Part shown: positions 23,091 through 37,615 of the stretch, one piece after another
Layout of the letters: each line of letters begins with the position of its first letter
Numbering within the stretch: the first letter of the stretch is position 1
Notes under the pieces: generated by a model
Databases searched by the model: none
What the model was told of the DNA's origin: nothing
Seen by the model: only the letters and a program-made list of their open reading frames with translations
Position numbers and translations under genes: made by a program
Assembly: GCA_017403985.1 (NCBI GenBank)
Contig: JAFRDE010000022.1
Coordinates: 1-37,790 of the forward strand
DNA: 37,790 bases
DNA from: Ruminococcus sp.
GTDB lineage: Bacteria; Bacillota; Clostridia; Oscillospirales; Acutalibacteraceae
Direction: 5' to 3'

Positions 23091-24656
23091 TCAGTCTGTA
23101 GAAAAAGCCATGTTTCGGCGAAAGTCGAAGCATGGCTTTAGCGTTTGGAAAAGGAATTCTAAAAAACATAAGCCGTAACGAAAGAAAATGCAAGAAAACA
23201 AGTCATGAGAGTGGTGTTTCCTGCTCTTTGCTTTCCATAGCGCCAGCTTTTTGAGATTCATGGCAGCAAACTTAAGCCTGACCCAGTTGGTAACTGCGTT
23301 CAAGCCTCTGTATGGAGTGTATCGCATGGCGTGCTTTTCTTTCGCGTCTGCGAATACTCGCTCGATCTTCTCTTTTCTCTCTTTATACAAGTCTGCATAC
23401 TCAGGCGTTTGACGAACATCTTCGCAACGCTCTATGTATTCATACCAGATATGCTTGGTTACCGTCTTTACAAAATCCTTTGAAGCTGTGCACAAGTGCC
23501 TTGTAGGACAATTCTTACATATCTCGGGATCGCTCTTGTATTCTCTGTATCCTTCTCTGTTAGTCGTGCTGTAGTTCAGTATTTGGTATTCAGGACAAAT
23601 AATGCAGTCATAGTATTCATCATAGACATACTCGTAATACGGATGGTTACCTTTCTTTGTCTGCGGTCTGGTATATGGCGTATTTAATGCTCTGCCGTCG
23701 TCAATTACTTTCTTTGCTATGTGGGGAGTTTTGTATGCTGCGTCTACTGTAACCGTCTTTACCTCAGGATGTTTCTCTACTACTTTGTCATACACATCGT
23801 CAAAAGCAACACTGTCATGTACGTTGCCGGGTGTTACTTCCGTTTCTAATACAAACCCGTTTTTGTCGCAGGCAGTATGCGCTTCATAAGCAAACTGCTT
23901 TTTGTGCTCGCCCTTTACAAACAATCCGCTTTCGGGATCGGTTGTGCTTTTGGTGACTTCTTTGGTTTTCTTCTTGGCTTCTTTCTTGCGCCTTTTCAGC
24001 TTTTTCTTTGAAGTGTTATCTCTTTTCTTTTTAGGCTTGTCGGGAGTATTGTTATCTTTGCCGATGTTATCTTCTTCCTTCAAAGGCTTTTTGCCGTGAG
24101 CTATCCTATCCTCGTTGATTTCTTCGAGAAGTTCGTCGGCATATCTTTTTGCCGCGACAGGTACTTCTTCCTTGATCTTTTTCTTGGTGTTGGCATTGGC
24201 TTTGATGTGTGTTCCGTCAATGAATACTGCTTCGGCGTTCAGATATCCGGCTTCTGCTACTTCATCCAGTATCCAGTAGAATACCTTGTCTACTGTTTCT
24301 TTGTTGAATCTTTTCCTGAAATTGTAGCTCAATGTGGAAAAGTGCGGCGTTTCATCATGCAAACTGTAACCCAAGAACCAACGGTAACATACATTTGCGC
24401 GGACTTCACTTGCCACACGTCTGAGTGACGGAATCCCGTACAGATGCTGAATGAGCACCATCTTGAACAAGATTACCGGATCAATACTCGGTCTGCCGTT
24501 ATCCTCACAATACAGATCTTCTACAAATTCATATATCTTGCTGAAGTCTACCGCCGCCTCTATCTTTCGCAAAAGATGATCCTCCGGCACTAAATCCTCT
24601 AAGCACACAATCTCTACTAACATTCTGTTATTCACGTTCTTTTCCAACATTTCCAT
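23091..24656 (-). CDS. IS1182-family (DDE) transposase
   Basis: The 521-residue transposase has the DUF772 N-terminal region (EDLVPEDHLLRKIEAAVDF, then GRPSIDPVILFKMVLIQHLYG) and the DDE_Tnp_1 core with FIDGTHIKANANTKKK (first Asp about 150), VDAAYKTPHIAKKV and the late ERVFADAKEKHAMRYTPYRGL (catalytic Glu region). It is full length and apparently intact. Codon use is AT-richer than the neighbours, which fits recent arrival. The last codon is a TGA whose final base lies outside the terminal repeat. The start could also be the GTG at 24659. Confidence 0.95.
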   Translation of the reverse strand: MEMLEKNVNNRMLVEIVCLEDLVPEDHLLRKIEAAVDFSKIYEFVEDLYCEDNGRPSIDPVILFKMVLIQHLYGIPSLRRVASEVRANVCYRWFLGYSLHDETPHFSTLSYNFRKRFNKETVDKVFYWILDEVAEAGYLNAEAVFIDGTHIKANANTKKKIKEEVPVAAKRYADELLEEINEDRIAHGKKPLKEEDNIGKDNNTPDKPKKKRDNTSKKKLKRRKKEAKKKTKEVTKSTTDPESGLFVKGEHKKQFAYEAHTACDKNGFVLETEVTPGNVHDSVAFDDVYDKVVEKHPEVKTVTVDAAYKTPHIAKKVIDDGRALNTPYTRPQTKKGNHPYYEYVYDEYYDCIICPEYQILNYSTTNREGYREYKSDPEICKNCPTRHLCTASKDFVKTVTKHIWYEYIERCEDVRQTPEYADLYKERKEKIERVFADAKEKHAMRYTPYRGLNAVTNWVRLKFAAMNLKKLALWKAKSRKHHSHDLFSCIFFRYGLCFLEFLFQTLKPCFDFRRNMAFSTD

Positions 24657-24723
24657 CACCGTATCTATTATACCATAGATACAACAAAAAGCCCAGCCTT
24701 AGCTGGACTTTTTCGACAGACTG
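23092..24723 (-). mobile_element. IS1182-like insertion sequence, complete
   Basis: The ends CAGTCTGTAGAAAAAGCC (left) and, inverted, CAGTCTGTCGAAAAAGTC (right) match at 16 of 18 positions and enclose a single transposase gene. Length is about 1630 bases. No direct target repeat was found: CTTT precedes the left end and GGGC follows the right. Confidence 0.88.
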
Positions 24724-24753: not shown

Positions 24754-26154
24754 CTAATTTTGCTTCATCCTTGTGCGGGTGAGTTTCTTTTTCAGTTCCT
24801 TCGGCTTGAAGGGGATGAGGGGGTAAAGGTAGCTTTTGCCGCTGATGGTCTTGTTGGTCGCGAGCAGGACGATCAGAATGACGATACCGATGATGAAGCC
24901 GACGAGATTGCCGATATAGGTCGCCGTCAGGAGAATGAAGCGCGCGTATTTCAGCGAGAAGCCGAGCTCATAGTTGGGCTGGCTGTAGTTGGCGATGGTG
25001 ACGAAGGCGACGTAGAGGGTGGAGGCGGTGGTGAACCATCCCGCGTCCACCGCGAACTGGCTGAACGCGATCGCGCCGATGATGCCGATTGCCGAAGTCA
25101 GGGAGCTCGGGGTGTGGAGCGCCGCGAGGCGCAGACCGTCGATGCACAGCTCCATGATGATGAGCTGCCAGTAGATCGGCAGACTTGTCGGCTCAACCAT
25201 CAATACGAATTGAAAGACCTGCGGGACGTGCTCTGGATTTTGCAGACACAGCAGCCACAGGGGCGTGAGCAGGACGGAGGCGATGGTGATCAGGTAACGC
25301 GTGATGCGGATATAGGTGCCGGTGATGGGCGGGAAGTAGTAGTCGTCCGCTTCTTCGAGGACGTCGAAGATGGACGTCGGGATCAGCAGCGCGGAGGGAG
25401 AGTTGTCCACGAGGATGACGATGTTGCCCTTAAGACAGACTGCCGCGGCGACGTCGGGACGCTCGGTGTATTTAATCTTCGGGAAGGGGTTGAGCCACTT
25501 CTTCTGATAGAGCGCTTCGATTAAACTTTGCTGATTCATGCTCAGGTTGGCGATATCGAGGTTTTTGATGCGGTCGGTGATATTCTTCAGCAGGGTATGG
25601 TCGACCTTGTTGTCCATATAGCAGATGATGACGTCGCTTTTGCTCTCGCGTCCGACGGTCATCGCCTTGGTGACGAAGTTCGCGGAGCGGATACGGCGGC
25701 GGATCAGCGCGGAGTTGAAGATGACGGTCTCGACAAAGCCGTCCTTGCTGCCGCGCAGTACCTTGTCGTCCTCGGGCTCGGAGGTGGAGCGCTGAGGATA
25801 GGTGCGCATGTCGAAGGCGATCGCGGCGGTGAAGCCCTCGGCGATCAGGCAGGGGATGCCGCTGAGGACGTTTTTGACGACCTCGTCGGGCTGATCGACG
25901 ATGCTGATCTCGACGTAGGGCACGCAGTGGCGGCAGAATTCCTCGACAGAGCTGAGGTATTCGGGGCGGGTGCTGCTGTAAAAGAATTCCATCAGCTTTT
26001 CCATGATATCGTCCTTGATCAGTCCGTTGATGTAGAAGATGACGGCTTTTTTGCCGGAGATGACGATGTTGCGCTCGATGATGTCGAAGCAGTCGCCGCA
26101 CCGCAGGAGATGCGCGAGGGTGCGGCGGTTGGTTTCATAGGATGAGGTGAACAT
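24754..26154 (-). CDS. GerA/SpoVAF-family spore germination membrane protein
   Basis: This 466-residue GerA-type protein is a subunit of the nutrient-responsive germinant receptor (or the related SpoVAF channel) in the spore inner membrane. The N-terminal soluble region (about 1-245) includes CFDIIERNI, GLIKDDIMEKLMEFF and the GSKDGFVETVIFNSALIRRRI signature. About five membrane segments follow (about 270-450, with ITGTYIRITRYLITIASVLL and the PTSLPIYWQLIIMEL stretch). Start chosen at 26154 (AAGGA eight bases upstream); the longer frame runs into repeat sequence. No GerB or GerC partner gene is adjacent, so it is an orphan A subunit. Confidence 0.93.
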   Translation of the reverse strand: MFTSSYETNRRTLAHLLRCGDCFDIIERNIVISGKKAVIFYINGLIKDDIMEKLMEFFYSSTRPEYLSSVEEFCRHCVPYVEISIVDQPDEVVKNVLSGIPCLIAEGFTAAIAFDMRTYPQRSTSEPEDDKVLRGSKDGFVETVIFNSALIRRRIRSANFVTKAMTVGRESKSDVIICYMDNKVDHTLLKNITDRIKNLDIANLSMNQQSLIEALYQKKWLNPFPKIKYTERPDVAAAVCLKGNIVILVDNSPSALLIPTSIFDVLEEADDYYFPPITGTYIRITRYLITIASVLLTPLWLLCLQNPEHVPQVFQFVLMVEPTSLPIYWQLIIMELCIDGLRLAALHTPSSLTSAIGIIGAIAFSQFAVDAGWFTTASTLYVAFVTIANYSQPNYELGFSLKYARFILLTATYIGNLVGFIIGIVILIVLLATNKTISGKSYLYPLIPFKPKELKKKLTRTRMKQN

Positions 26155-26164
26155 GGGATCGGTC

Positions 26165-26325
26165 CTTTCAGAATCATTCAGGCCCCCTTTCCTAAGGGGG
26201 CTGGCATCGGACGCTTGCGGACGATGCCCGGGGGTTGCTCGATCATATAACGTTTTCCAGCCGCTTCGCGGCAACCCTCCGCCCCTTCGGGGCACCTCCC
26301 TTAGGGAAGGGAGGCTTTTTCGTTA
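26165..26325. repeat. Cluster of hairpin repeats between gerA and the phage module, with copy B of the GGCAACCCTCCGCC repeat
   Basis: The cluster has GCCCCCTT/AAGGGGGC (about 26181-26200), a GGCATCG/CGATGCC pair, and at 26270-26316 the second copy of the roughly 47-base repeat found in the hrcA leader, ending AAGGGAGGCTTTTT. It occupies the boundary where host genes stop and phage genes begin. Confidence 0.65.
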
Positions 26326-26468: not shown

Positions 26469-26954
26469 GTGAAGCCGAGAGAAAAAGAATTCTGCCGTTT
26501 GATGACGGTGTATGCCGATCCGATCCGGGCGGCGCGGGAGGCGGGATATAAAGAGCCGGAAAAGGCTTGGTCCGAGCTTTCCGCGCGCGAGGAGATCGCC
26601 GGTGAGATCCGCCGCCGGTGCGAGAATATCCGCTCGATATACGAGAGTACCGCTGTCAGCGGTTTATATGGGCTCGCCTACGGCGGCGTGAGCGACGCGC
26701 TGACGTTCATCAATCGGGAGATCATCCGCGAGGAGGATCTCAGAGCGCTCGACCTGAGAAACGTATCGGAGATCAAGCGCACCGACAAGGGCGTCGAGAT
26801 CAAATTCTGCGACAGGATGAAAGCGGTCGACAAGCTGCAGGAGCTTTTGGGGGCTTCTGCGGAAAGCGCGGGTGGCTCGGGACTTCTGGACGCGATACTG
26901 CTGTCTGCCGAAGCGCTCGGCAATCGCGGAGGAAGTGAATCCGATGCAGTATAA
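26469..26954 (+). CDS. Phage terminase small subunit
   Basis: The 161-residue protein binds phage DNA and hands it to the packaging motor. The N-terminus KPREKEFCRLMTVYADPIRAAREAGYKEP (about 2-30) is a terminase-small helix-turn-helix of the type found in PBSX-like phages, followed by a helical oligomerisation region (VDKLQELLGAS near 125). GTG start with GGAAGGAA upstream. It overlaps the large subunit gene by 11 bases. It is the first gene of the phage block, and no phage regulatory gene precedes it. Confidence 0.85.
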   Translation: MKPREKEFCRLMTVYADPIRAAREAGYKEPEKAWSELSAREEIAGEIRRRCENIRSIYESTAVSGLYGLAYGGVSDALTFINREIIREEDLRALDLRNVSEIKRTDKGVEIKFCDRMKAVDKLQELLGASAESAGGSGLLDAILLSAEALGNRGGSESDAV

Positions 26955-28209
26955 GCCGCTGTCGGAAAAACAGCTTCGGGCGATGTTCTGGTGGGCGAAG
27001 GGTTCGGGTACCGAACACTATGACGCCGTGATTTGTGACGGCGCGGTGCGCTCGGGCAAGACCTTTTCGCTCTCGCTGTCCTTTGTGATGTGGGCGAGCT
27101 TACGCTTTGACGGCGCGCTGCTGGGCTTTTGCGGCAAGACGATCACGGCGCTGCGGCGCAACGTGATCATACCCCTCCTGCCTTGCCTGAAAGAGCTCGG
27201 CTTCGACGTGCGCGAGAACGTCAGCAGTAACCGTCTGCATATCCGCTATCAGAAGCATGAAAACACCTTTTTTCTGTTCTCGGGAAAGGACGAAGGCTCC
27301 GCTTCGCTGATACAGGGCGTTACCCTGTCGGGTATCCTGTTCGACGAGGTAGCGCTGATGCCGCGCTCCTTTGTGGAGCAGGCGCTGGCGCGATGTTCGG
27401 TCAGCGGTTCAAGGTTCTTCTTTAACTGTAATCCCGAGTACCCCTCACACTGGTTTTATCGGGAATGGATCAAAAACAGGGAACGCAAAAACGCCTTGTA
27501 TATCCATTTCCGCATGCGGGACAACCCATCTCTGAGCGAGAAGATGCTCCGGCGATATGAGAGCCTGTACACGGGCGCGTTTTACCGCCGCTTTGTCGAG
27601 GGAGAATGGGTGAGCGTCTCGGGCGCTGTCTATCCCTTTATGGGCGACAGCGGTATGTTCATCCCGCCTCCGAACGGCTCCTGTGAGGAATACTGTGTCT
27701 CCTGCGATTACGGCACGGTGAATCCTGCGTCGATGGGTCTGTGGGGGCGAAAAGGCGATATCTGGTATCGCCTGCGTGAGAGTTATTATGACGCGCGCAA
27801 GGAAGGCAGAAGCAAAACAGATGAGGAACATTATGATTCTTTAAAGGAATTATTGGGTGAGCTTATGCCAGCCGCGGTGATCGTCGATCCGTCAGCCGCC
27901 AGCTTTATCGAGGTGATCGAGCGACACGGGCGCTATCCTGTCGTCAGAGCGGACAACAACGTCATCGACGGGATCCGCAGGACAAGTCAGGCGCTCCGGG
28001 ACGGCGAGATCGTGATCTGCGACACCTGCGCCGACGCCATCCGCGAGTTTTCGCTCTATCGCTGGGACGAGAACAAGCCGATGGACACGGTGATCAAGCG
28101 CGACGACCACGCGATGGATGACATACGCTATTTTGTCAGTTATATAAAGGCGAGAGAGGAAAAACTCGGCTTTGCCTTTATTGATCGACATCAAGATCGA
28201 GGTTGTTGA
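26944..28209 (+). CDS. Phage terminase large subunit (PBSX-like)
   Basis: The 421-residue DNA-packaging ATPase and nuclease has Walker A DGAVRSGKT (32-40), Walker B GILFDEVAL (130-138) and a C-terminal nuclease domain beginning with SCDYGTVNPASMGLW (Asp255), then VIVDPSAASF and DDHAMDDIRY near the end. All three acidic nuclease positions seem present, so it looks functional. I chose the ATG at 26944 because MQYKPLSEKQLRAM begins the conserved part and GGAGG lies 11 bases upstream. The gene is followed by a 108-base gap holding a host-type palindrome. Confidence 0.96.
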   Translation: MQYKPLSEKQLRAMFWWAKGSGTEHYDAVICDGAVRSGKTFSLSLSFVMWASLRFDGALLGFCGKTITALRRNVIIPLLPCLKELGFDVRENVSSNRLHIRYQKHENTFFLFSGKDEGSASLIQGVTLSGILFDEVALMPRSFVEQALARCSVSGSRFFFNCNPEYPSHWFYREWIKNRERKNALYIHFRMRDNPSLSEKMLRRYESLYTGAFYRRFVEGEWVSVSGAVYPFMGDSGMFIPPPNGSCEEYCVSCDYGTVNPASMGLWGRKGDIWYRLRESYYDARKEGRSKTDEEHYDSLKELLGELMPAAVIVDPSAASFIEVIERHGRYPVVRADNNVIDGIRRTSQALRDGEIVICDTCADAIREFSLYRWDENKPMDTVIKRDDHAMDDIRYFVSYIKAREEKLGFAFIDRHQDRGC

Positions 28210-28223
28210 TATGATCCCGAAAA

Positions 28224-28248
28224 GTAGGGGAGGGGCTTGCTCCTCCCG
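28224..28248. repeat. GTAGGG-type palindromic repeat inside the phage operon, copy 6
   Basis: The unit GTAGGGGAGGGGC-TTG-CTCCTCCC lies between the large terminase and portal genes. It belongs to the same family as the copies in host intergenic regions (901, 1528, 20692, 22860, 22944). All other junctions of the phage block except the two ends are 17 bases or shorter. Confidence 0.65.
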
Positions 28249-28317
28249 TTATGAATCGGGTTTGGGCACAGCCCTCCTATATTCATATTCCTCGATCCGA
28301 TAAACAGGAGGTATATC

Positions 28318-29451
28318 TTGCGATTATTTTCAAAAAGAAAGAGCCCCCGAGTGCCCGAGGTGCAGACCTGCACCACAGCGGACAGGGGCATTATCCCTCC
28401 GTTACACAACTTGGACAACCCTGCTGAGTTTCGTCTTTACCGCGAGCTGAGAGAAAAGGTCCCGGTCATCGACGCAGCGATCATGAAGCTTGTGCGGCTG
28501 CTGGGAGAATTCAGGATCGTTTGCGCGGATGATCAGGCGCAGAAGGCGATGGATGAATTTGTGTCAAGGGTCCCGGTCGGCGGCGTGTCGACGGGACTGT
28601 ATATGTTCATCTGTACCTATTTCGATCAGCTGCTGACTTGCGGCAAGGCAGTGGGCGAGATCGCGGTCTATGAGGACGGCGGTATCGCGGCGCTGTATAA
28701 CGCTCCCGCCGACGCCGTGACGCTGTGTGCGGGTGATAACCTTGTAGACGCGAGGATGGTTCACAGCGGCGTCGGAAAGAAGGAGATCGAACATCCTGAA
28801 CGCATCTGCGTGACCCTGCTGAATCCTCAGCCGGGAACCCTGCGCGGCACATCCATCCTCAGCGGCCTGCCTTTCGTCAGCGATCTGCTGATGAAGATAT
28901 TCCGTTGTGTGGGGCAGAACTTTGAGCGCGCGGGCAACGTGCGCTTCGCCGTGACCTATAACCCTCCCGCGGGCGCGGGGGCTGTCAACGCGCGTCAGCG
29001 CGTCAAAGAGATCGCCGAGCAGTGGAGCAGCGCGATGCGCGACAAAAGCAGGGTATGCGACTTTGTATCTGTTGGCGACGTGAACATCCGCGCGATCGGC
29101 GCGGACAGTCAGATCCTCGACTGCGATGTTCCGATCCGCCACGTGCTCGAACAGATCGTTGCAAAGCTCTCTGTCCCGCCGTTCCTTTTGGGGCTGTCTT
29201 GGTCCTCGACCGAGCGGATGTCCTCCCAGCAGGCGGATATCCTGACCTCGGAACTGGAGCATTACCGCTTTTTGCTGACGCCCGTGATCGAAAAGATCGC
29301 GCGGGCGTATCTGAACGCGGAACGGCTCGATCCAAGGGTAACGGTCGAATGGAGCAATATCAGCTTACAGGATGAGACAGAGCTGGCGGCGGCGCGTCTG
29401 GATAACGCGCGAGCGATGCAGCTCGAGCAGAGTATGGAGGTGAACGGATGA
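28318..29451 (+). CDS. Phage portal protein
   Basis: The 377-residue portal forms the ring at the capsid vertex through which DNA passes. The order directly after terminase and before the protease supports this. Visible family features are VPVIDAAIMKLVRLLG near the start, a central QPGTLRGTSILSGLPFV stretch, and LSVPPFLLGLSWSSTERMSSQQADI toward the end, typical of PBSX/HK97-like portals. It begins at a TTG with AGGAGGT seven bases upstream, and its stop overlaps the next ATG by four bases. Confidence 0.93.
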   Translation: MRLFSKRKSPRVPEVQTCTTADRGIIPPLHNLDNPAEFRLYRELREKVPVIDAAIMKLVRLLGEFRIVCADDQAQKAMDEFVSRVPVGGVSTGLYMFICTYFDQLLTCGKAVGEIAVYEDGGIAALYNAPADAVTLCAGDNLVDARMVHSGVGKKEIEHPERICVTLLNPQPGTLRGTSILSGLPFVSDLLMKIFRCVGQNFERAGNVRFAVTYNPPAGAGAVNARQRVKEIAEQWSSAMRDKSRVCDFVSVGDVNIRAIGADSQILDCDVPIRHVLEQIVAKLSVPPFLLGLSWSSTERMSSQQADILTSELEHYRFLLTPVIEKIARAYLNAERLDPRVTVEWSNISLQDETELAAARLDNARAMQLEQSMEVNG

Positions 29452-30398
29452 AATACGGACAGGTGATCAAGGGCGTCAAGCCCGATGATATCACAAAGGA
29501 AATGGAACTGGTCAATCGCTATTCCCGTCGCGAGCTCACTGAGGATGAAGTGTATCTTTTTTCGGTCGTGCTGTGCGACAACGATATCGACCGCGACTAT
29601 GAACGCTTTACGGTGGAGTCGCTCTTTGCGCTTGAAAAGCTCTTTGTCGGCAGGACCGGTATCATTGACCACGATCCGACCGCAAAGAATCAGAAGGCGC
29701 GGATCATTTCCTGCAAGGTCGAGAGCACGGAAGGCAAACGTACCGCCAACGGCGATCAGCTCTTCCGCCTGACAGCAAGGGCGTATATACGCCGTACACC
29801 GGGAAACGCCGAACTGATCGAGGCGATCGAAGCCGGTATCGTCAAGGAGGTTTCCGTGGGCTGCAGCGTAGGGCGTACGGTATGCTCGATCTGCCGCAGC
29901 GATATCCACTCGCCGCTTTGCAGCCATCAAAAGGGCAGAGTCTACGATGGCGAACTGTGCTTCGGCGAGCTGTGCGAACCGAAGGACGCGTATGAATTCA
30001 GCTTTGTCGCGGTGCCGGCTCAGCGCGCGGCAGGTGTAACGAAAGGATATGAAAAGAAAGATATGAACGATATTTGTAAATCTCTTGCGGGAGATCACGA
30101 AGTCACATTGACCAAGGATGAGGCGACGAGCCTTAAAGCATATATCGAGCGCCTGGAGAGCGAGGGCGAATACGCGAAGGCGTATCGCGAGGAGCTGACC
30201 GATCGGCTCAGAACCGCTCTCAGAGAAAAGGGCGTCGAGCTCGATTATGTCGTCGAGAATTGTATTCTCAAAAAGCTCAGCGTGCATGAGGCACAGGCGC
30301 TTATCAAGGCGCTCAGCCGCAAAGAGCGCAAGGTGATCACACAGCTGGGCGAAAACAAAGCCGATGAAGCGATCGGCAACACCGAATTCAGAATTTAA
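29448..30398 (+). CDS. HK97-type prohead protease with C-terminal scaffold-like region
   Basis: The 316-residue protein would mature the capsid. The protease part (about 30-200) has the catalytic His in GIIDHDP (His75), Ser136 in KEVSVG, and YEFSFVAVPAQ (182-192), all standard. A Cys/His cluster (Cys146, Cys149, Cys158, His160, Cys171, Cys176) suggests a small zinc ribbon, seen in many Firmicutes prophage proteases. The last 110 residues are charged and helical, consistent with an attached scaffold domain, so no separate scaffold gene is needed. It is coupled to the portal by an ATGA overlap. Confidence 0.9.
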   Translation: MKYGQVIKGVKPDDITKEMELVNRYSRRELTEDEVYLFSVVLCDNDIDRDYERFTVESLFALEKLFVGRTGIIDHDPTAKNQKARIISCKVESTEGKRTANGDQLFRLTARAYIRRTPGNAELIEAIEAGIVKEVSVGCSVGRTVCSICRSDIHSPLCSHQKGRVYDGELCFGELCEPKDAYEFSFVAVPAQRAAGVTKGYEKKDMNDICKSLAGDHEVTLTKDEATSLKAYIERLESEGEYAKAYREELTDRLRTALREKGVELDYVVENCILKKLSVHEAQALIKALSRKERKVITQLGENKADEAIGNTEFRI

Positions 30399-30409
30399 CG
30401 GAGGCAGGA

Positions 30410-30739
30410 ATGGATATTAAGTTTAACGGATATATGGAAAACGTTCTGACGCTGGAATGCACGAGCACCGTTGAAGCGGGCGATCTCGTCAAGATGTCAG
30501 CGTCCGGCAAGGTGACGAAGGCGAGCGCTAACGATACCTTTGTCGGCGTTTGCGTCAGCGCCTGCGGCGATTACGCCGCCGTACAGCTCAACGGCTATGT
30601 CGAGACGGCAAAGTCCGGCACAGTGAACGTCGGCTACAACAAGCTCGTTGCCGCTTCTTCCGGCGTGAAGACCGCCGAGAGCGGCGTCGACAGACTGGTC
30701 ATCTACAGCGACGAGACAACCGTCGGCTTTATTCTGTAA
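30410..30739 (+). CDS. Small beta-rich head protein, probable capsid decoration (DUF2190-like)
   Basis: The 109-residue protein is predicted all-beta, Gly/Ala/Val rich, with ECTSTVEAGDLVKMSASGKVTKA and VGVCVSACGDYAAVQLNGY. The same pattern occurs in DUF2190 and lambda gpD-like head stabilisers encoded just before the capsid protein. GGAGG lies upstream of the ATG. It is 10 to 13 bases before the capsid gene. Confidence 0.78.
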   Translation: MDIKFNGYMENVLTLECTSTVEAGDLVKMSASGKVTKASANDTFVGVCVSACGDYAAVQLNGYVETAKSGTVNVGYNKLVAASSGVKTAESGVDRLVIYSDETTVGFIL

Positions 30740-30752
30740 GAGGAGGGATATG

Positions 30753-31760
30753 ATGGCAGCATTTGAAAAGATCAATTTGGAAAAAGGCATGTATCAGACA
30801 GGCAGAAGCCTGACCGAGATCCTCGAGGAGATGGATCCCAGCGAGAATTACAAGGGTTCTGCTCTCGAGGGACTGGACGCGTTCTCGCGTCAGCTCAAGC
30901 GCTTTGATATCAAAGTCAGCGGCAAGGGCTCCGATACCATCGAGAAGTTCTTCGCGACTTCCAACTCGGCGGCGCTCTTCCCCGAGTATGTCAGCCGCGC
31001 GGTCAACGCCGGCATCGAGGAAGCGAATATGCTGGACGACGTCGTCGCGACCGTTACCAAGATCGACGGCATGGATTACCGCTCCTGCACCTCGAGCATG
31101 ACCGACGATGACAAGAGCCTCAAGCGCGTCGCGGAGGGCGCTTTCATCCCGGTCACCGAGATCAAGACCAGCGACAATCTCGTGCATCTGCACAAGCGCG
31201 GTCGTATGCTCGTCGCGAGCTACGAGGCGATCCGCTTTCAGCGCATCGACCTCTTTACCGTGACTCTCAAGCAGATCGGCGCGTATATCGCCCGTTCTCA
31301 GATGGCTGACGCGGTGGACGTCATCCTCAACGGCGACGGCAACAACAACGCCTGCGCGAGCGTCAGCCCCGCTTCCTCCGGCAGCCTTAGCTACGCCGAT
31401 CTCATCAGCATGTGGAGCGCTCTGTCTCCCTTTGAGCTGAACACTGTGCTGGCTTCCACCAACGCGATGACAGCCTTGCTGACCATGACGGAGATGAAGG
31501 ACGCGGTCGCGGGTCTGAACTTCCAGGGCAGCGGCAAGATGATCACGCCTCTGGGCGCGAACCTGATCCACACCACCGCGCTGAGCGGCAATAATATCAT
31601 CGGTCTGGACAAGAACTGCGCGCTCGAGATGGTCGTCGCGGGCGACGTCGCCGTCGACTACGATAAGCTCATCGACCGTCAGCTCGAGAAGGCTTCGATC
31701 AGCTGTATCGCGGGCTTCGCGAAGATCTACAACGGCGCGGCGAAAAAGCTGACTTACTAA
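30753..31760 (+). CDS. Phage major capsid protein
   Basis: The 335-residue product is a likely HK97-fold capsid protein. The N-terminal arm and E-loop region (about 1-110) precede a P-domain with IRFQRIDLFTVTLKQIGAYIARSQMADAVDVILNGDG (about 155-190) and an A-domain ending CALEMVVAGDVAVDYDKLIDRQLEKASISCIAGFAKIYNGAA. Position after protease and decoration protein is standard. Two ATG codons (30750, 30753) follow AGGAGGG; the second has the better distance. Confidence 0.93.
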   Translation: MAAFEKINLEKGMYQTGRSLTEILEEMDPSENYKGSALEGLDAFSRQLKRFDIKVSGKGSDTIEKFFATSNSAALFPEYVSRAVNAGIEEANMLDDVVATVTKIDGMDYRSCTSSMTDDDKSLKRVAEGAFIPVTEIKTSDNLVHLHKRGRMLVASYEAIRFQRIDLFTVTLKQIGAYIARSQMADAVDVILNGDGNNNACASVSPASSGSLSYADLISMWSALSPFELNTVLASTNAMTALLTMTEMKDAVAGLNFQGSGKMITPLGANLIHTTALSGNNIIGLDKNCALEMVVAGDVAVDYDKLIDRQLEKASISCIAGFAKIYNGAAKKLTY

Positions 31761-31774
31761 GGAGGTCGTGACAC

Positions 31775-32131
31775 TTGCGCTTGAATAAGATCATCGAACG
31801 ATTTTCGCTGGTGTCGGGCTTTGAGATGAAGGATGTGTCGCGTTATCTGCCGATCATCGCGGACTGTAAGGCGTACTTTGAAAGCCTGCTCCCCGAGCTG
31901 AACGAGAACGATCTGCGCCGCGCGGAATACGCCTGCGCCGTTTACGCGTTCTACCGTATCAGTCAGCTGGGAAGGCTGGACGATCTGAAATCGTTCAAGG
32001 TCGGCGACGTGCAGATGAACGTCGAGGCGATCGGCGAGGCGGCGAAAAAGCTGTGGGAAGCAGAACGTGAGAACATATCCGATATTTTGGATATCAGCGG
32101 TGATTTTGCTTTCAGGAGCGTGCGCGTATGA
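31775..32131 (+). CDS. Phage head-tail connector (gp6/YqbG-like)
   Basis: The 118-residue helical protein occupies the connector position right after the capsid gene. LNKIIERFSLVSGFEMKDVSRYLPIIADCKAYFES resembles the adaptor family that plugs below the portal. TTG start with GGAGG nine bases upstream, and ATGA overlap with the next gene. Confidence 0.78.
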   Translation: MRLNKIIERFSLVSGFEMKDVSRYLPIIADCKAYFESLLPELNENDLRRAEYACAVYAFYRISQLGRLDDLKSFKVGDVQMNVEAIGEAAKKLWEAERENISDILDISGDFAFRSVRV

Positions 32132-32496
32132 GAATGACGAATTATCTCGACCGCGCACTGAAGAAATTCGGCAACACCGTGCGTATCCGCCGCGGCGGCA
32201 GGACAGAGGTCTTTAAGGCCTTTGTCCAGCCGCTCAGGCGGCGACACAGGCTGTATATCAACGACAGGTATATCCCTGCCGGCTATTTCGATAACCGCTA
32301 TCTGCTGTATATCGGACCCGGCGACCGTCCGCTCGAGGACGGGATGCGCGTCGTGTGCAGAGGTACGGCATACACGGTGGTGACGGCGGAGATCTTCGCG
32401 GCGCACGACGAGGATATCTATGTATGGGCGATCCTGATGCCCGTATGCAAGGGTAAGGAGGATTATTATGACCTCATCGACAGAGAATCGGATTGA
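32128..32496 (+). CDS. Phage head-closure-like protein (XkdH/YqbH-like)
   Basis: The 122-residue basic beta-rich protein has RIRRGGRTEVFKAFVQPLRRRH and DGMRVVCRGTAYTVVTAEIF, a pattern shared with head-completion stoppers. It sits between connector and terminator-like genes, as expected. It overlaps the following gene by 29 bases. Confidence 0.72.
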   Translation: MRMTNYLDRALKKFGNTVRIRRGGRTEVFKAFVQPLRRRHRLYINDRYIPAGYFDNRYLLYIGPGDRPLEDGMRVVCRGTAYTVVTAEIFAAHDEDIYVWAILMPVCKGKEDYYDLIDRESD

Positions 32497-32905
32497 CGAA
32501 TGGATCGCCCGCGTGAAGCAGCGCGGCGCGATGCGCGCCTTCGCGTTCATCCCGGGCTATCCGGCACATAAAACGCCTAATCCTATCACAAAATATACGG
32601 TAGCCGTGACCGACAGCAAACAGAAGATCAGCCGCTTTTTTATCGGCGATCGCGTCGGCTCAAATACGAAAGGACGGCTGTATGAGGTCGAGCTGACGCT
32701 GAGGGTCTACGCGCCAGAGAACAGCTCCGGTTCATCGCTCCTGCGCGCGGGCGCTCTGCTGATGGACGCATTTGAAGCCGAGGATATCGACAGAGCGATT
32801 TATTCGCTGTCGCTGTCGGGCGTCGGCTTCGACACCGCCTCCCGCACCGAATACCGCGATGTGATCGCGCGGCTGGATTTCGTGGAAAAGGAGGCGGCGG
32901 TATGA
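32468..32905 (+). CDS. Phage tail-terminator-like protein
   Basis: The 145-residue protein has the alternating beta pattern of tail-completion/terminator proteins (KYTVAVTDSK, YEVELTLRVYAPENSSGSSLLRAGALLMDAF). These cap the tail tube before it joins the head. AAGGAGG precedes the ATG, and an ATGA overlap joins it to the next gene. Its presence implies that the particle does have some form of tail. Confidence 0.66.
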   Translation: MTSSTENRIDEWIARVKQRGAMRAFAFIPGYPAHKTPNPITKYTVAVTDSKQKISRFFIGDRVGSNTKGRLYEVELTLRVYAPENSSGSSLLRAGALLMDAFEAEDIDRAIYSLSLSGVGFDTASRTEYRDVIARLDFVEKEAAV

Positions 32906-33282
32906 ACGAACTGAGAATCGTCAGGGGAACCGATATCTGTCTCTATGCGGATGATGAGCCGCTCTTCGGCGTCACGTCGTTCACTGCGGAGGAGAAGCCG
33001 CTTTTCCATGAGGTGTACGAATATCTGGATTCAAAGCCGTGTGACCGCATCCCGCAGGGGACGAAATATGAGATCCGTATCGGCATGATGTCGCTGTTCG
33101 ATCATCAGCTCCCCGTCGTGGAGGAATTCACTTTGCGGCTGACAGACGGCGATGTGACCTATTGTTACGAAAATTGCCGCGTCGTCGGGCGCAGAACCAA
33201 GACGGAAGGCAGCGGTATGGCGACGGAGGAATTCACCGTCAAGGCGAATCAAATGGAAAAGCAGGTGGCAGAGGATGAATGA
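32902..33282 (+). CDS. Probable small tail tube-like structural protein
   Basis: This 126-residue predicted all-beta protein has short motifs reminiscent of PBSX XkdM-type tubes (DICLYADDEPLFGVTSF, then a C-terminal strand pair GSGMATEEFTVKANQ). It is the only candidate for a tube in the block. XkdM itself is a little longer, and it could instead be another connector or a baseplate protein. It takes the place where sheath and tube genes occur in PBSX-like phages. Confidence 0.5.
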   Translation: MNELRIVRGTDICLYADDEPLFGVTSFTAEEKPLFHEVYEYLDSKPCDRIPQGTKYEIRIGMMSLFDHQLPVVEEFTLRLTDGDVTYCYENCRVVGRRTKTEGSGMATEEFTVKANQMEKQVAEDE

Positions 33283-33400
33283 GAATATGAAGACACAGGA
33301 GATCGCATACGACAGCGAAGAGCTATCACGGGAGCTGGAGCGCGACGCGCGCCGATATAATCAGGCTTTTACGGAGGAAGAGGAGGTCAGGCTGATATGA
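33275..33400 (+). CDS. 41-residue acidic helical protein in the tape-measure slot
   Basis: This small frame encodes MNENMKTQEIAYDSEELS... and is very rich in Glu and Arg, predicted as one helix. It overlaps the gene before it by eight bases and the one after by ATGA. Unbroken coupling on both sides argues that it is a real gene. It fills the position normally held by tail-assembly chaperones and the tape measure. No family was recognised. Confidence 0.6.
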   Translation: MNENMKTQEIAYDSEELSRELERDARRYNQAFTEEEEVRLI

Positions 33401-33918
33401 GATTCGCACCGATGCGTTTTGACGGGATGAGCCTGCGCCACAATCCCGAAAAGCTGCATATCAGCGGCAGCGATCATGTGAAGGAATATCGTTCCCCCTG
33501 CTGTGAAGCGGACAGCGTCAGCCTCGGCAGAGAGCTGAAGCGTATCGCCGGAGAAGGCGAATTCTGCGGCGCGGACTGTATCGAACAGTATCGCGCATTG
33601 GAAAAGATGCAGATCAAAGCAAAGAGAGCGAAGTTAGCCCTGCCGCATATGCAGCCGATGTACGCCTATCTCAAGGAACTGGAGCTGACGGCAAAGCCGA
33701 TGGATAACGTGCTTTCCTATCGTTTTGTATTCGTTGAGGCGCAGAGTCCGCGTCCCGAGGCTCAGGGTACGGAATATTATCTGACAGTGTCCGAGGGCGA
33801 AAACCTGTGGGATATTTCCTATGAATACGGCGTGCCGATCGAGCGCTTGGTCGCGCTGAATCCGCATATCCCGCTGATCGGAGAGCTGAGCGGGGGAGAA
33901 AGGGTGCGATTATGCTGA
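33397..33918 (+). CDS. LysM-domain tail protein (XkdP-like)
   Basis: The 173-residue protein has an N-terminal region starting RFAPMRFDGMSLRHNPEKLHI and a C-terminal LysM domain (about 127-172: YYLTVSEGENLWDISYEYGVP, ALNPHI). In contractile phages such proteins sit between tape measure and hub and bind peptidoglycan or thread the tail tip. XkdP of PBSX is similar in order and ending. It overlaps both neighbours. Confidence 0.86.
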   Translation: MRFAPMRFDGMSLRHNPEKLHISGSDHVKEYRSPCCEADSVSLGRELKRIAGEGEFCGADCIEQYRALEKMQIKAKRAKLALPHMQPMYAYLKELELTAKPMDNVLSYRFVFVEAQSPRPEAQGTEYYLTVSEGENLWDISYEYGVPIERLVALNPHIPLIGELSGGERVRLC

Positions 33919-34853
33919 GATGTGTTTTGCGCGATGTGAAAGGAAAAGAATTCTCTTTACCGGAATTGCTCTCGCTGCAGGTGAATATCGACGAGGGCGT
34001 GCCTGCCGATTCGCTGTACGCGACTTTTGTGAACACGCCGACGGAGCAATTGGTCGGAATCACGCTTTATGACGACGATACGCCGCTGTTTATCGGTATC
34101 GTAGATGAAGAAGAGCGACAGCGCGATCAGAAGGGAGAATTCCTCAAGATATCCGCGCGCTCCTTGGCGGCGCATTTGCTGGATAACGAGGCGGCTCCCT
34201 GTGCGTACGATCATCCGTCGCTCGGGCTGATATACGAGCGATATGCGAAGCCCTACGGGATCGAGCTGTATGAGAGCGGCGCCGCTGTCTTCTTCGGCGA
34301 GCAAAGCGTGACAAAGGGCTCTTCCTGCTGGCGGGTGCTGAAGAACTTTTGCACGGCGTGTTATTCCGCTGTGCCGCGCGTCAGCTCGGTCGGCGTTTTG
34401 TATCCCAAGGGGATCCAAAATGACGGAGAGATCGCTTTCGGCAGCGAGGGGATCCGCTATACCGCGATCCGCGAGGTGCAGAAGCGCTGTGAAGAGATTT
34501 CGACGGTGTATGTCAAAGCGTCGAACGCGGATACCTATTCGCTGCCGATCGTGAATCCGCAGGCGGCGGAGCGCGGCGTCAGACGCGTGCGCTATCTGAA
34601 CGCCATGCTGACCGAAAGTCCGATGCGATGTGCGGACGCGATGATCAGAAACGGCGAAAAGAAAGCCTATGAGGTTCACCTGAGCTGTTCTTCCTGCATG
34701 CTCGGGAAGGAAGGATACCGCGCCGTACTGAAGGATGAAGCGCTCGGGGATCGGAATGATCTGTATATCAGCGCCGTCCATTATCGGATGACGAAGGACG
34801 GCGAAACAAGCAACATAACGCTTAAGAGGAGGCAGGATGATGTGGATCAATGA
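33912..34853 (+). CDS. Baseplate hub protein (gpD/XkdQ-like)
   Basis: The 313-residue protein matches the phage late-control gene D / XkdQ group, which forms the central hub beneath the tail tube. Features are an N-terminal SLQVNIDEGVPADSLYATFVN, GEFLKISARSLAAHLLDNEAAP and a C-terminal LKDEALGDRNDLYISAVHYRMTKDGETS. It overlaps the LysM gene by seven bases and the spike gene by 17. Confidence 0.86.
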   Translation: MLRCVLRDVKGKEFSLPELLSLQVNIDEGVPADSLYATFVNTPTEQLVGITLYDDDTPLFIGIVDEEERQRDQKGEFLKISARSLAAHLLDNEAAPCAYDHPSLGLIYERYAKPYGIELYESGAAVFFGEQSVTKGSSCWRVLKNFCTACYSAVPRVSSVGVLYPKGIQNDGEIAFGSEGIRYTAIREVQKRCEEISTVYVKASNADTYSLPIVNPQAAERGVRRVRYLNAMLTESPMRCADAMIRNGEKKAYEVHLSCSSCMLGKEGYRAVLKDEALGDRNDLYISAVHYRMTKDGETSNITLKRRQDDVDQ

Positions 34854-35178
34854 ATATATGACCGGACGCTCGGGCAAAACGAACGTCGCGGCGGCGGGTG
34901 AGATCCTGACCGCGAACAACGGCCGCGTAGCCGTCGGCTCGAACAGGAACTATAACGCGCTGCCGGTGATCGCGCCCGCGGGCGTCGCATATGTACCGGC
35001 GGCGGGGACTTCGACGATGGTGTTGGAGGGCGCGGGCGGCACGGTATGCCTGGGCGTGATCGCCGCGCCGCCCGAGCCGCTCGAAGCGGGAGAACTGATG
35101 CTGTATTCCGCCGGCGGCGCCAGCATCGTACTGAAAAACAATGGCAAAGTGCTGATCAACGGCAGGGAGGTGTCCTGA
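34837..35178 (+). CDS. Short baseplate spike protein (gpV-like)
   Basis: The 113-residue protein is Gly/Ala/Val-rich beta structure, with VAAAGEILTANNGRVAVGSN, an OB-like core and a short repeat-like C-terminus (GGASIVLKNNGKVLINGREV) like the membrane-piercing spike of contractile tails. It is shorter than P2 gpV (about 210 residues), so the needle would be small. GAGGAGG precedes two ATG codons (34837, 34840). Its stop overlaps the next start (TGATG). Confidence 0.72.
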   Translation: MMWINEYMTGRSGKTNVAAAGEILTANNGRVAVGSNRNYNALPVIAPAGVAYVPAAGTSTMVLEGAGGTVCLGVIAAPPEPLEAGELMLYSAGGASIVLKNNGKVLINGREVS

Positions 35179-35528
35179 TGGACGTTAAGGTTTCCGACGG
35201 CGATATCGCTATGGTGGCTTCGGGCGATTACCGGTATATCACCGGTATCGAAGAGGCGGTACAAAGGGTACGCATCTCCGCGCTGACGTTCAAGGGCGAC
35301 TTTATCTATGACAGGGAGCTGGGGACGGATTACAGCGGACTCAGCGCCGATGACGACATGCTGTGCGAAAAGCTGGAGCTGCTGCTTAAGGAAAGCTGCG
35401 TCGATATCCATGATACGACCGTCGAGGTAGCGTCGTGCGACAGCGAAAGCTTGATCGCGGTGCTGAAGATCACCTTCAGGAACCGCGAAACGACTACGGA
35501 GGTGAATTTATCTGGAATCATACAATGA
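35178..35528 (+). CDS. Baseplate wedge protein (gp25/W-like)
   Basis: The 116-residue protein has the gp25-like fold signature (AVQRVRISALTFKGDFIYDRELGTDY, then VEVASCDSESLIAVLKITFRN). It forms part of the wedge that links hub to baseplate J. The ATG at 35178 overlaps the previous stop by one base, with GGAGG upstream. A longer frame starting at 35046 overlaps the spike gene and has no signal. Confidence 0.86.
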   Translation: MDVKVSDGDIAMVASGDYRYITGIEEAVQRVRISALTFKGDFIYDRELGTDYSGLSADDDMLCEKLELLLKESCVDIHDTTVEVASCDSESLIAVLKITFRNRETTTEVNLSGIIQ

Positions 35529-36570
35529 GATTTTGAACCGTATGCTTGATACATATGAGGCGGAAAGCGGGTTCCGTCCGACCAACGAGTCGGATATTAT
35601 GCTCCGACTGCGTGTGCTGGCGGGCGAGATCTATCAGGAGCGTGTGTACGCGCAGTACATTATGCAGCAGATGTTTCCGTCTACTGCGGCGGGAGAGTAT
35701 CTGGACGCGCACGCGGCGCAGCGCGGTCTGACCCGCAAAAACGGGACGAAGGCTGTCGGCAGTCTTTATTTTACAGCTGCTGACGTCGACCACGATAATA
35801 TCCTGATCCCCGCAGGGACGGAGGCGTGCACAACGGACGGTACGCTTCGCTTTGTGACAGTTCGCGATACCGTTCTGCCGTCGACGTCCAATGCCGTATA
35901 TGCGGACGCTGAGGCGGCGCAGGTCGGAAGCGCCTATAACGTTCGCTACAACACGATCGGCATTATGGTGACGCCGGTGGTGGGGATCGCTTCCGTAAAA
36001 AACAACGCGAGCTTTAACGGCGGAACGAATGAAGAGAGCGATGAGATGCTCAGGGAAAGAGTCCTCGACAGCTATCGGAATATCGTCAACGGCGCCAACG
36101 CGGCGTATTACCGCTCAGTGGCGATGTCGGTGGACGGCGTGTATTCCGCGTCCGCGGTCGGCTGCGCGCGCGGCGCCGGAACCGTCGACGTCTACGCCTG
36201 TGCCAGAGGCGCGACACTGTCCTCGGCTAAGATCGCCGAGATCCAGGCGCTGCTGGATGAAAAACGCGAGGTGAACGTCGACGTCAGAGCGGTCAGCCCG
36301 ACAGCGATGAATATCAATCTTTATATCCGCCTGACAGCTGCAGAGGGTTATGATTTCAATACGGTAGCGGCGAACGTCCGCGCGGCGGTTATCGATTATA
36401 TCAACGGCCTCGGGATCGGAAACGACATGTATCTGAGCAAGGTCGGCGAGGTGATCTATCACATCGAAGGCGTAGCGGATTATAAATTCGTCGAAAGCTA
36501 CGGTTCGGACAGAGAGGTGCCGTCGGATCGCTTTGCGAAGGCGAATACCATCACGGTGAGGGATGAATGA
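35512..36570 (+). CDS. Baseplate J protein, apparent CTG start
   Basis: The 352-residue baseplate J-like protein (Baseplate_J family) is the main wedge subunit of contractile tails. It has GGTNEESDEMLRERVLDSYRN and GTVDVYACARGATLS typical of the family, and a C-terminal VITYHIEGV-like region (GEVIYHIEGVADYKF). The N-terminus LESYNEILNRMLDTYEAESGF matches the usual start of the family only if translation begins at CTG 35512, which has GGAGGTG seven bases upstream. No ATG, GTG or TTG in this region has a binding site. It overlaps the gp25-like gene by 17 bases. Confidence 0.9.
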   Translation: MESYNEILNRMLDTYEAESGFRPTNESDIMLRLRVLAGEIYQERVYAQYIMQQMFPSTAAGEYLDAHAAQRGLTRKNGTKAVGSLYFTAADVDHDNILIPAGTEACTTDGTLRFVTVRDTVLPSTSNAVYADAEAAQVGSAYNVRYNTIGIMVTPVVGIASVKNNASFNGGTNEESDEMLRERVLDSYRNIVNGANAAYYRSVAMSVDGVYSASAVGCARGAGTVDVYACARGATLSSAKIAEIQALLDEKREVNVDVRAVSPTAMNINLYIRLTAAEGYDFNTVAANVRAAVIDYINGLGIGNDMYLSKVGEVIYHIEGVADYKFVESYGSDREVPSDRFAKANTITVRDE

Positions 36571-37133
36571 TGACGGTATCGGAGCGATTGAATCATTACC
36601 TTTCGCCGGTCGGGATCTACCAAATCGGATCGGATGCGCTGAGTTGGGAGCTTACTGCCTATGCTGTCGAGCTGGAACGGCTGTATGCCGATCTCGGCAC
36701 CTTGTTCCGCGAACGATTCATCACGACCGCCGAAGGTATCGGACTTAAGGCGTTTGAAGAGCTGTTCGGACCCGAGAGGACTGGCGAAAGCACACAGGAT
36801 CGCAGAGAAAAGCTCCTGCTGCGTCTGAATCTGGGCGGCGGCGACTTTACGCCCGCGGGGATCCGCAGGGCGCTGGACAGCTTCGGTCTGGAATATACGC
36901 TCAGCGAGTTCCCGACGATCGGAAAGATGACGGTGACCGCGACGACGGATTATTCGCAGCCGCAGCAGGCTTGGATCAGGCGGGAGGTCGAAAAGATCAT
37001 TCCCGCTCATATCGAATTCCAGCTGACGTTCAACACCATGACATGGGCGCAGTGGGACGCTCTCGACAGGACCTTTGCCGCAATCGACAACGAAGATTTG
37101 ACTTGGCGTCAGATCGATAACCGCACACAGTAA
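36567..37133 (+). CDS. Baseplate/tail protein (gpI/DUF2313-like)
   Basis: The 188-residue protein follows baseplate J as gpI or YmfQ-like (DUF2313) proteins do; these complete the wedge and hold the tail fibre. Features are YLSPVGIYQIGSDALSWELTAYAVELERLY, ERFITTAEGIGLKAFEELFG and EVEKIIPAHIEFQLTFN near the end. ATGA overlap with baseplate J. Confidence 0.83.
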   Translation: MMTVSERLNHYLSPVGIYQIGSDALSWELTAYAVELERLYADLGTLFRERFITTAEGIGLKAFEELFGPERTGESTQDRREKLLLRLNLGGGDFTPAGIRRALDSFGLEYTLSEFPTIGKMTVTATTDYSQPQQAWIRREVEKIIPAHIEFQLTFNTMTWAQWDALDRTFAAIDNEDLTWRQIDNRTQ

Positions 37134-37150
37134 ATGAAAGAAGGATCTTT

Positions 37151-37615
37151 ATGGCAACCAGTAACTATACACCGAATCTGCACCTGAGCGCATGGGCGGA
37201 CGGCGACAGACCGAAGCGCGCGGATTTTGTATCCGATAACAATATCATCGACACACAGCTGGGCGGTCACATCGCCGACGCCGGTATCCATGTGACGGCG
37301 CAGGAAAAGGCTAAGATATCGGAGCCTTTTACTACCGCTCTGTATTCCGGCTCGGGCGAGAGCTCGCGCGCGATCAGTCTCGGCTTTCAGCCGAAGATGG
37401 TATTCGTCTACAAGCGCGGCGTACCGTTCGTCACGTACAGCGGCGGAGTCAACAACGTCAACGCCGCGTGCGGCTGTTACGGCAACGGCGCGAGCGTGGG
37501 GATCAGCATCACCTCGACCGGGGTGAATGTATCCCAGTCGGCGCAGGCGTCGGACGGGGTCAAGGTGTGTCTGAACGAAAGCGGCTGTCAGTATACGATC
37601 GTCGCGTTCAAGTAA
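37151..37615 (+). CDS. Short tail-fibre or receptor-binding protein
   Basis: The 154-residue protein starts ATSNYTPNLHLSAWADGDRPKRADFVSDNNIID, the N-terminal pattern of phage fibre proteins that bind the baseplate. A Gly/Ser/Asn-rich beta part follows (about 70-154, VSGDG-like repeats, Cys-rich ACGCYG). It lacks the long shaft of typical fibres. An AAAGAAGGAT site precedes the ATG. It is the last visible gene of the block; an IS3-type element begins 35 bases after its stop. Confidence 0.78.
   Translation: MATSNYTPNLHLSAWADGDRPKRADFVSDNNIIDTQLGGHIADAGIHVTAQEKAKISEPFTTALYSGSGESSRAISLGFQPKMVFVYKRGVPFVTYSGGVNNVNAACGCYGNGASVGISITSTGVNVSQSAQASDGVKVCLNESGCQYTIVAFK

Follow-up and report, generated by a model that had tools for sequence, protein, structure and literature searches.

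The stretch of DNA considered here (the window) is contig JAFRDE010000022.1 of Ruminococcus sp. (GCA_017403985.1), 37,790 nucleotides long and one entire contig of the draft genome searched (2.68 Mb, 63 contigs). At positions 26469..37615 it carries a block of 18 genes, all on the plus strand, for a head and a baseplate; sheath, chaperones and a normal tape measure are absent. In PBSX of Bacillus subtilis and in related contractile phages and tailocins, genes are ordered as terminase, portal, capsid, neck, tube, LysM, hub, gp25, J and I. The block follows this order and possesses the tail tube and the gp25-, J- and I-type baseplate proteins, but it has no sheath, chaperones or long tape measure, the corresponding position being occupied by 41 residues. 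The terminase-to-fibre order had been read by the initial annotation of this DNA, and PHROG matches of the terminase, portal, capsid, hub, gp25-type, J-type and I-type products bear it out. Its coordinates all hold, including the overlapping junctions on both sides of the 41-residue gene (33282/33275 and 33400/33397) and the one between the terminator-like and 126-residue genes (32905/32902). Gene roles were taken from PHROG and Pfam profile matches, judged against the cut-off as marked in Table 1, and otherwise from position.

Table 1. Genes of the block, with the evidence for each role.
Feature	Position	Strand	Length (aa)	Evidence
Terminase small subunit	26469..26954	+		PHROG 2606/51, E 1.4e-5 and 5.1e-5
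Terminase large subunit	26944..28209	+		PHROG 2, E 3.6e-49
Portal	28318..29451	+		PHROG 30703, E 2.3e-116
Probable head maturation protease/scaffold	29448..30398	+		PHROG 16951 (unknown), 2.2e-82; weak head-protease match, 2.2e-5; role suggested by position
Head decoration/cement	30410..30739	+		PHROG 4588 virion structural protein, E 8.3e-13; Pfam Phage_cement_2, 0.0022, below cut-off
Major capsid protein	30750..31760	+		PHROG 3922, E 1.4e-100
Neck protein 1 (adaptor position)	31775..32131	+	118	No family match; position and conservation
Neck protein 2 (head-stopper position)	32128..32496	+	122	No family match; position
Terminator-position protein	32468..32905	+	145	No family match; position; fused to tube or fibre in relatives
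Tail tube protein	32902..33282	+	126	Profile match to 8q01; AlphaFold2 model; Foldseek
Probable minimal tape measure (anchor end only)	33275..33400	+	41	Position before LysM; C-terminal motif common to tape-position proteins of sheath-bearing relatives
LysM baseplate/hub-associated protein (XkdP position)	33397..33918	+		Pfam LysM, 1.2e-5, above cut-off
Baseplate hub (gpD type)	33912..34853	+		PHROG 177, E 1.9e-11
Small protein at spike/OB position	34837..35178	+	113	PHROG 25991 (unknown), E 2.7e-12; position
gp25-type baseplate wedge/sheath initiator	35178..35528	+		PHROG 120, E 1.2e-8; Pfam Sheath_initiator, 0.0015, below cut-off
J-type baseplate wedge	35533..36570	+		PHROG 6, E 8e-65
I-type/Mu gp48 baseplate protein	36567..37133	+		Pfam Phage_Mu_Gp48, 8.1e-12, above cut-off
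Short fibre	37151..37615	+		No family above cut-off; position and fusion to terminator in relatives

The 126-residue product is a tail tube, as judged from its profile and predicted fold. Its AlphaFold2 model (57 sequences) has a mean pLDDT of 89.1, and in a Foldseek comparison with the PDB tail tubes rank highest, the best being that of phage 812 (8q01; E 1.4e-7, TM 0.61), with the tube of the gene transfer agent RcGTA of Rhodobacter capsulatus (6tba) at rank 22. A profile search with the family of this product reaches the same solved tube, 8q01, at E 5e-5. The initial annotation had counted the tube among the missing parts and had proposed a search for hidden folds among the products of 31775-33918; that search, made with the 126-residue model, put tail tubes at the top, and the possibility that the tube is also missing from the block was discarded.

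The 41-residue product is probably a tape-measure remnant consisting of the hub-anchoring end only, to judge from its position and C-terminal motif. Close to its end it carries ERDARRYNQAF; in the sheath-bearing relatives described below, a low-complexity protein terminates with a motif like RRDARRYDGGF. The strict motif stands directly before LysM in 79 of 158 LysM-containing loci, in a protein of 25-64 residues in 66 sheathless loci versus 73-229 residues in 13 sheath-bearing ones. Viral contigs were scanned with a LysM profile (best 80 of 104 matches) and a sheath profile (best 80 of 145), giving 124 usable loci, 117 of them with a sheath. Contractile relatives likewise seem to carry just a short tape, because in the 105 viral-contig loci with both tube and LysM the motif occurs in 80, in proteins of 107-298 residues, and the largest tube-to-LysM gap among the viral-contig loci is 1854 bp.

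Sheath-bearing relatives have the head, neck, tube and baseplate genes in common with the window, in most cases in equal order; what they add is a sheath and, in most, a chaperone gene overlapped by a second frame, together with a tape-position protein of greater length. They occur in families f13 and f24, which belong to the same order, and in a few genera of f1, the host family of the window genome, which corresponds to Acutalibacteraceae in GTDB (loci L148-L154, L157-L160, L163, L165, L166, L169, L170, L183, L190, L197, L198 and L214). The sheath gene sits between terminator and tube (window equivalent 32902-32905), and that of L148 contains Pfam sheath domains (E 4.3e-15 and 1e-11). Most of these loci carry the chaperone-position gene with its second frame, followed by the low-complexity protein, between tube and LysM (window equivalent 33275-33400); f1 loci L190 and L198 depart from this, with only 227 and 51 bp there. 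The genes absent from the window correspond to two junctions, both closed in it: the sheath to terminator/tube, the chaperones and short tape to tube/LysM. As evidence against its reading, the initial annotation had named relatives with sheath and tape-measure genes inserted at 33282-33397. This is half borne out: relatives with such genes exist, but their tape is short and, because the sheathless layout is itself conserved, a recent deletion is not its origin. As separate observations, the chaperone-position gene and its overlapping frame (L148-L154 and other sheath-bearing loci) look like a programmed frameshift pair, and the capsid gene precedes the portal in L149 and the protease in L162. 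The gp25-type protein keeps its length (median 115 residues in sheathless and 116 in sheath-bearing forms); a check of sheathless forms for loss of its sheath-facing end gave no sign of one.

The block could be a defective prophage, with the absent genes either deleted or located elsewhere, and the sheath, chaperones and longer tape of related families do imply that such genes were lost at some time. However, a sheath profile run on 43 genomes recovered the sheath-bearing ones (5/5) and gave no match in 36 of the 38 others, with two weak matches; nothing was found by it in the window or its genome. The tape-measure family PF10145 (PhageMin_Tail) was not found in the window genome and four congeners, an incomplete test, as the family matches 7 of 14 control genomes. 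These searches, for the sheath and one tape-measure family, led to the rejection of a location of the tail genes elsewhere in the genome, including the placement past the insertion sequence that the initial annotation had offered as an alternative; its own observation of a head and baseplate block with no sheath, chaperone or tape-measure gene was confirmed. Capsid-to-LysM spacing is 1528-1706 bp in 92 of 96 loci with both genes (the exceptions are 521, 2149, 2293 and 3187 bp), so the compact layout is not due to chance. Median dN/dS, calculated for 22 close loci from 202 mutually non-independent pairs selected by capsid dS of 0.15-1.2, is 0.11-0.29 for each of the 18 genes, including 0.151 for the 41-residue gene, 0.106 for the terminase and 0.17 for the portal. 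All 18 genes are under purifying selection, and maintenance by selection is one mark of a gene transfer agent; conserved gene order together with low dN/dS is also the support that the initial annotation had looked for. The block is not a decayed or damaged prophage, and a defective prophage is largely refuted as an explanation, retaining hardly any probability.

The capsid gene was found in 112 of 200 f1 genomes (100 of 158 good genomes; 79 of 135 genera), as a single match in each and with no internal stops, two of the matches being partial at contig ends. In the order as a whole, the capsid profile matched 83 of 396 genomes, two of them twice. One of the 83 (G449, weak capsid match) turned out to contain an ordinary long-tailed prophage, and its locus, L167, was removed from the counts. 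Genome G443 has two capsid matches (L181 and L182), one without the rest of the block, and an IMG/VR contig (L034:4277-5284) has a capsid frame with an internal stop, unique among the frames examined. An isolate, Ruminococcus sp. FMBCY1 (NZ_CP074197), has the block as locus L116, in which a fibre was not recognised.

Descent was examined by comparing a tree of four block proteins with an rpoB tree for 68 genomes. The trees have 39 of 65 splits in common, versus a permuted mean of 0.235 and a maximum of 1 in 200 runs. Among strongly supported splits, 31 of 38 in the block tree recur in the rpoB tree and 23 of 28 rpoB splits recur in the block tree. The Mantel correlation is 0.66, 2000 permutations reaching at most 0.21. 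The block has descended largely vertically with the host chromosome and, given the 31 of 38 agreeing splits and this correlation, shows the vertical inheritance of a gene transfer agent. Of 58 long loci from the closest relatives, 31 have GerA upstream; downstream, two unnamed host genes occur in 32 loci each and Mfd in 26. In another clade one gene, putatively HflX-like, is the next gene in 10 genomes of nine genera. In the window, a transposase-like frame (23091-24659, minus strand) adjoins the GerA-type gene (24754-26295).

An autonomous short-tailed phage, or a satellite using helper functions, could also carry such genes; IMG/VR contains 10-12 kb contigs with the block, and sheath-bearing relatives L390 and L058 lie within contigs of 55 and 80 kb. 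Against this, the block tree tracks the host, and in the loci whose gene layout was read the flanks are host genes, with neither an integrase nor a replication gene recognised next to the block, although this reading involved no dedicated integrase search. Among 50,697 phage records the capsid gave 11 matches, six at 23-31% identity and five, at 59-68%, to unannotated faecal scaffolds, the only records above 31%. An independent phage or satellite is very improbable on this evidence. Two of the scaffolds are labelled as human fecal samples from Mexico. In MT835508 (L309; 41,002 of 46,673 bases seen) host genes, putatively ribosomal protein genes and others, flank a block that stops at the terminator; in MT835952 (L308) host genes are followed by the block up to the record end. 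The label resembles that of a study of DNase-treated virus-like particles (PMC8361208), but a link from the accessions to that study could not be established. If there is one, host chromosome lay in the particle fraction; contamination is an equal reading.

Further reduction is seen in other loci. From 79 genomes 80 loci were fetched, which with the window gives 81; L167 and L181 (without portal and capsid) were left out and 79 were counted. Sheath, tube and baseplate are present in 21; another 21, the window included, are sheathless with a separate tube and a baseplate; six have a fused terminator-tube and a baseplate; seven have a baseplate and no recognised tube; seven have a fused terminator-fibre; four have a hub but no J or gp25; and 13 are without the full recognised baseplate set. 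Five of these 13 end at most 3.1 kb from the end of the stretch, and L216 is without only the recognised hub and the small gene after it.

A single reading frame joins terminator and tube in 18 loci, a set in which at least one was fetched twice (L096, L110, L112, L113, L115, L118, L121, L122, L125, L132, L139, L189, L192, L204, L205, L207, L216 and L227). Since such a chain supplies one tube copy per terminator copy, a single tube ring would be formed, unless an internal start produces free tube. In L173, L179 and L210 only 158-248 bp separate the second neck gene from LysM; there the baseplate is apparently set on the head stopper, terminator and tube having no room. The four f24 loci L161, L162, L164 and L168 have head, neck and hub; tube, gp25 and J were not found there, nor a J-type gene elsewhere in those genomes. 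In the seven terminator-fibre fusions (L193, L201, L202, L217, L220, L221 and L224) baseplate genes are absent, host genes follow wherever the stretch continues, and no J-type gene was found anywhere in six of the seven genomes, the seventh giving a weak match only (E 9e-18). These loci are apparently tailless forms.

The block is likely to encode a functional, host-domesticated, phage-derived particle working like a gene transfer agent. The gene layouts contain head and packaging genes and no replication or integration genes, as in gene transfer agents, and the packaged DNA is probably that of the host, since no such gene travels with the block. In the proposed mechanism, terminase and portal would fill a small capsid with DNA, and the neck proteins would seal the head. 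A tube of about one ring would link it to a contractile-type baseplate with fibre, the 41-residue tape remnant being anchored at the hub, and DNA would leave as from a short-tailed phage, with no contraction. The related genomes suggest stepwise tail dismantling in a DNA-carrying particle that bacteria have made their own. The series would run from a short contractile tail, through a sheathless tube ring with the 41-residue tape and a tube fused to the terminator, to a baseplate seated almost immediately on the head stopper, and a head without any tail whose terminator bears the fibre. The initial annotation had proposed a domesticated particle whose tail is very short or lacking. Conservation, tree congruence, selection and the failure to find the missing genes elsewhere uphold this; the 126-residue tube and the 41-residue tape remnant amend it.

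Several points weigh against a gene-transfer-agent-like particle with a single tube ring. The block is known here from its genes; its capsid gene is absent from 88 of the 200 f1 genomes, and its insertion site is common within clades only, not family-wide. Lysis genes were not seen adjoining the block, and no search for them was made elsewhere in the genome. The strict tape motif is limited to the 79 loci given above. When four divergent members (two from sheath-bearing loci) are removed from the tube profile, 8q01 is still first, at E 0.008, with unrelated proteins from 0.022. Separate tube and terminator genes, such as the window has, do not require a single ring, and in the model of the fused protein only the tube half matched solved relatives, no solved terminator being among them.

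RcGTA resembles the block as a vertically inherited head-tail cluster without replication genes, whose tube is among the fold matches noted above. It has a long, non-contractile, siphophage-like tail with a normal tail tip, whereas the block has a contractile-type baseplate and almost no tail. A search of the open-licence PMC literature (no preprints) for Oscillospirales and gene transfer agents gave no paper. Packaging of this kind is, however, described for Ruminococcaceae and Oscillospiraceae in the part of PMC12946183 (2026) that was available. Fragments there are of 8.4-8.9 kb in Faecalibacterium and Gemmiger and of 4.6 kb in Ruminococcus callidus, the latter without a named gene cluster in that part. 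Its four cluster-searched metagenome-assembled genomes and 16 reference genomes are of Onthomonas, Gemmiger, Faecalibacterium and Subdoligranulum, and homologues of FpGTA, the agent of Faecalibacterium prausnitzii, were also sought in all its scaffolds.

PMC12946183 regards FpGTA as most probably podovirus-like; its heads measure about 40 nm, and tails could not be identified. Compared by description only, it resembles the block as a small, inherited-looking head and packaging cluster of a related family, with baseplate and fibre genes and no visible tail. It differs in being split between two loci, of 10.5 and 5.5 kb, with holin and endolysin in the smaller one, while the window has one 11 kb block and no adjoining lysis genes. 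Coordinates of FpGTA I and II in CP030777 are listed in PMC12946183. As candidates for FpGTA, the f24 loci L161 and L168 were set aside: they span 6.9 and 7.3 kb (G+C 0.48 and 0.37) versus about 9.6-10.5 kb in PMC12946183, and identity is not claimed. The block is assigned to the gene-transfer-agent kind and not to a new category, because packaging and transfer are proposed here and a podovirus-like example has been published (PMC12946183).

A domesticated particle could instead perform another job, antibacterial like PBSX or protein-carrying, in which case DNA delivery would have been lost or become secondary. The baseplate and fibre are kept and conserved, and for FpGTA the choice between DNA delivery and PBSX-like action is left open in the part of PMC12946183 consulted. 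Terminase and portal, however, are strongly constrained, as their dN/dS values show, and are kept in baseplate-less forms, which points to packaging as the retained function; such another job is unlikely, though it keeps some weight. The domesticated gene-transfer-agent-like particle may further represent an ancient family, inherited chromosomally over several families of one order, with its tail dismantled stepwise, which could be the source of the 4.6 kb Ruminococcus particles; this extension is held as slightly favoured. The block is a candidate for packaging activity in Ruminococcus relatives of the kind reported in PMC12946183.

If this is true, gut and rumen relatives of Ruminococcus have an inbuilt particle by which chromosomal DNA may pass from cell to cell; such packaging has just been reported in this group, where most gene clusters are unnamed. 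The reduction series would be a natural experiment on the needs of a phage tail, with a readable loss of sheath, chaperones, tape length, tube and baseplate. As the gene fusions tie the copy number of the tube to that of the terminator, the function of tape measure and terminator could be tested directly.

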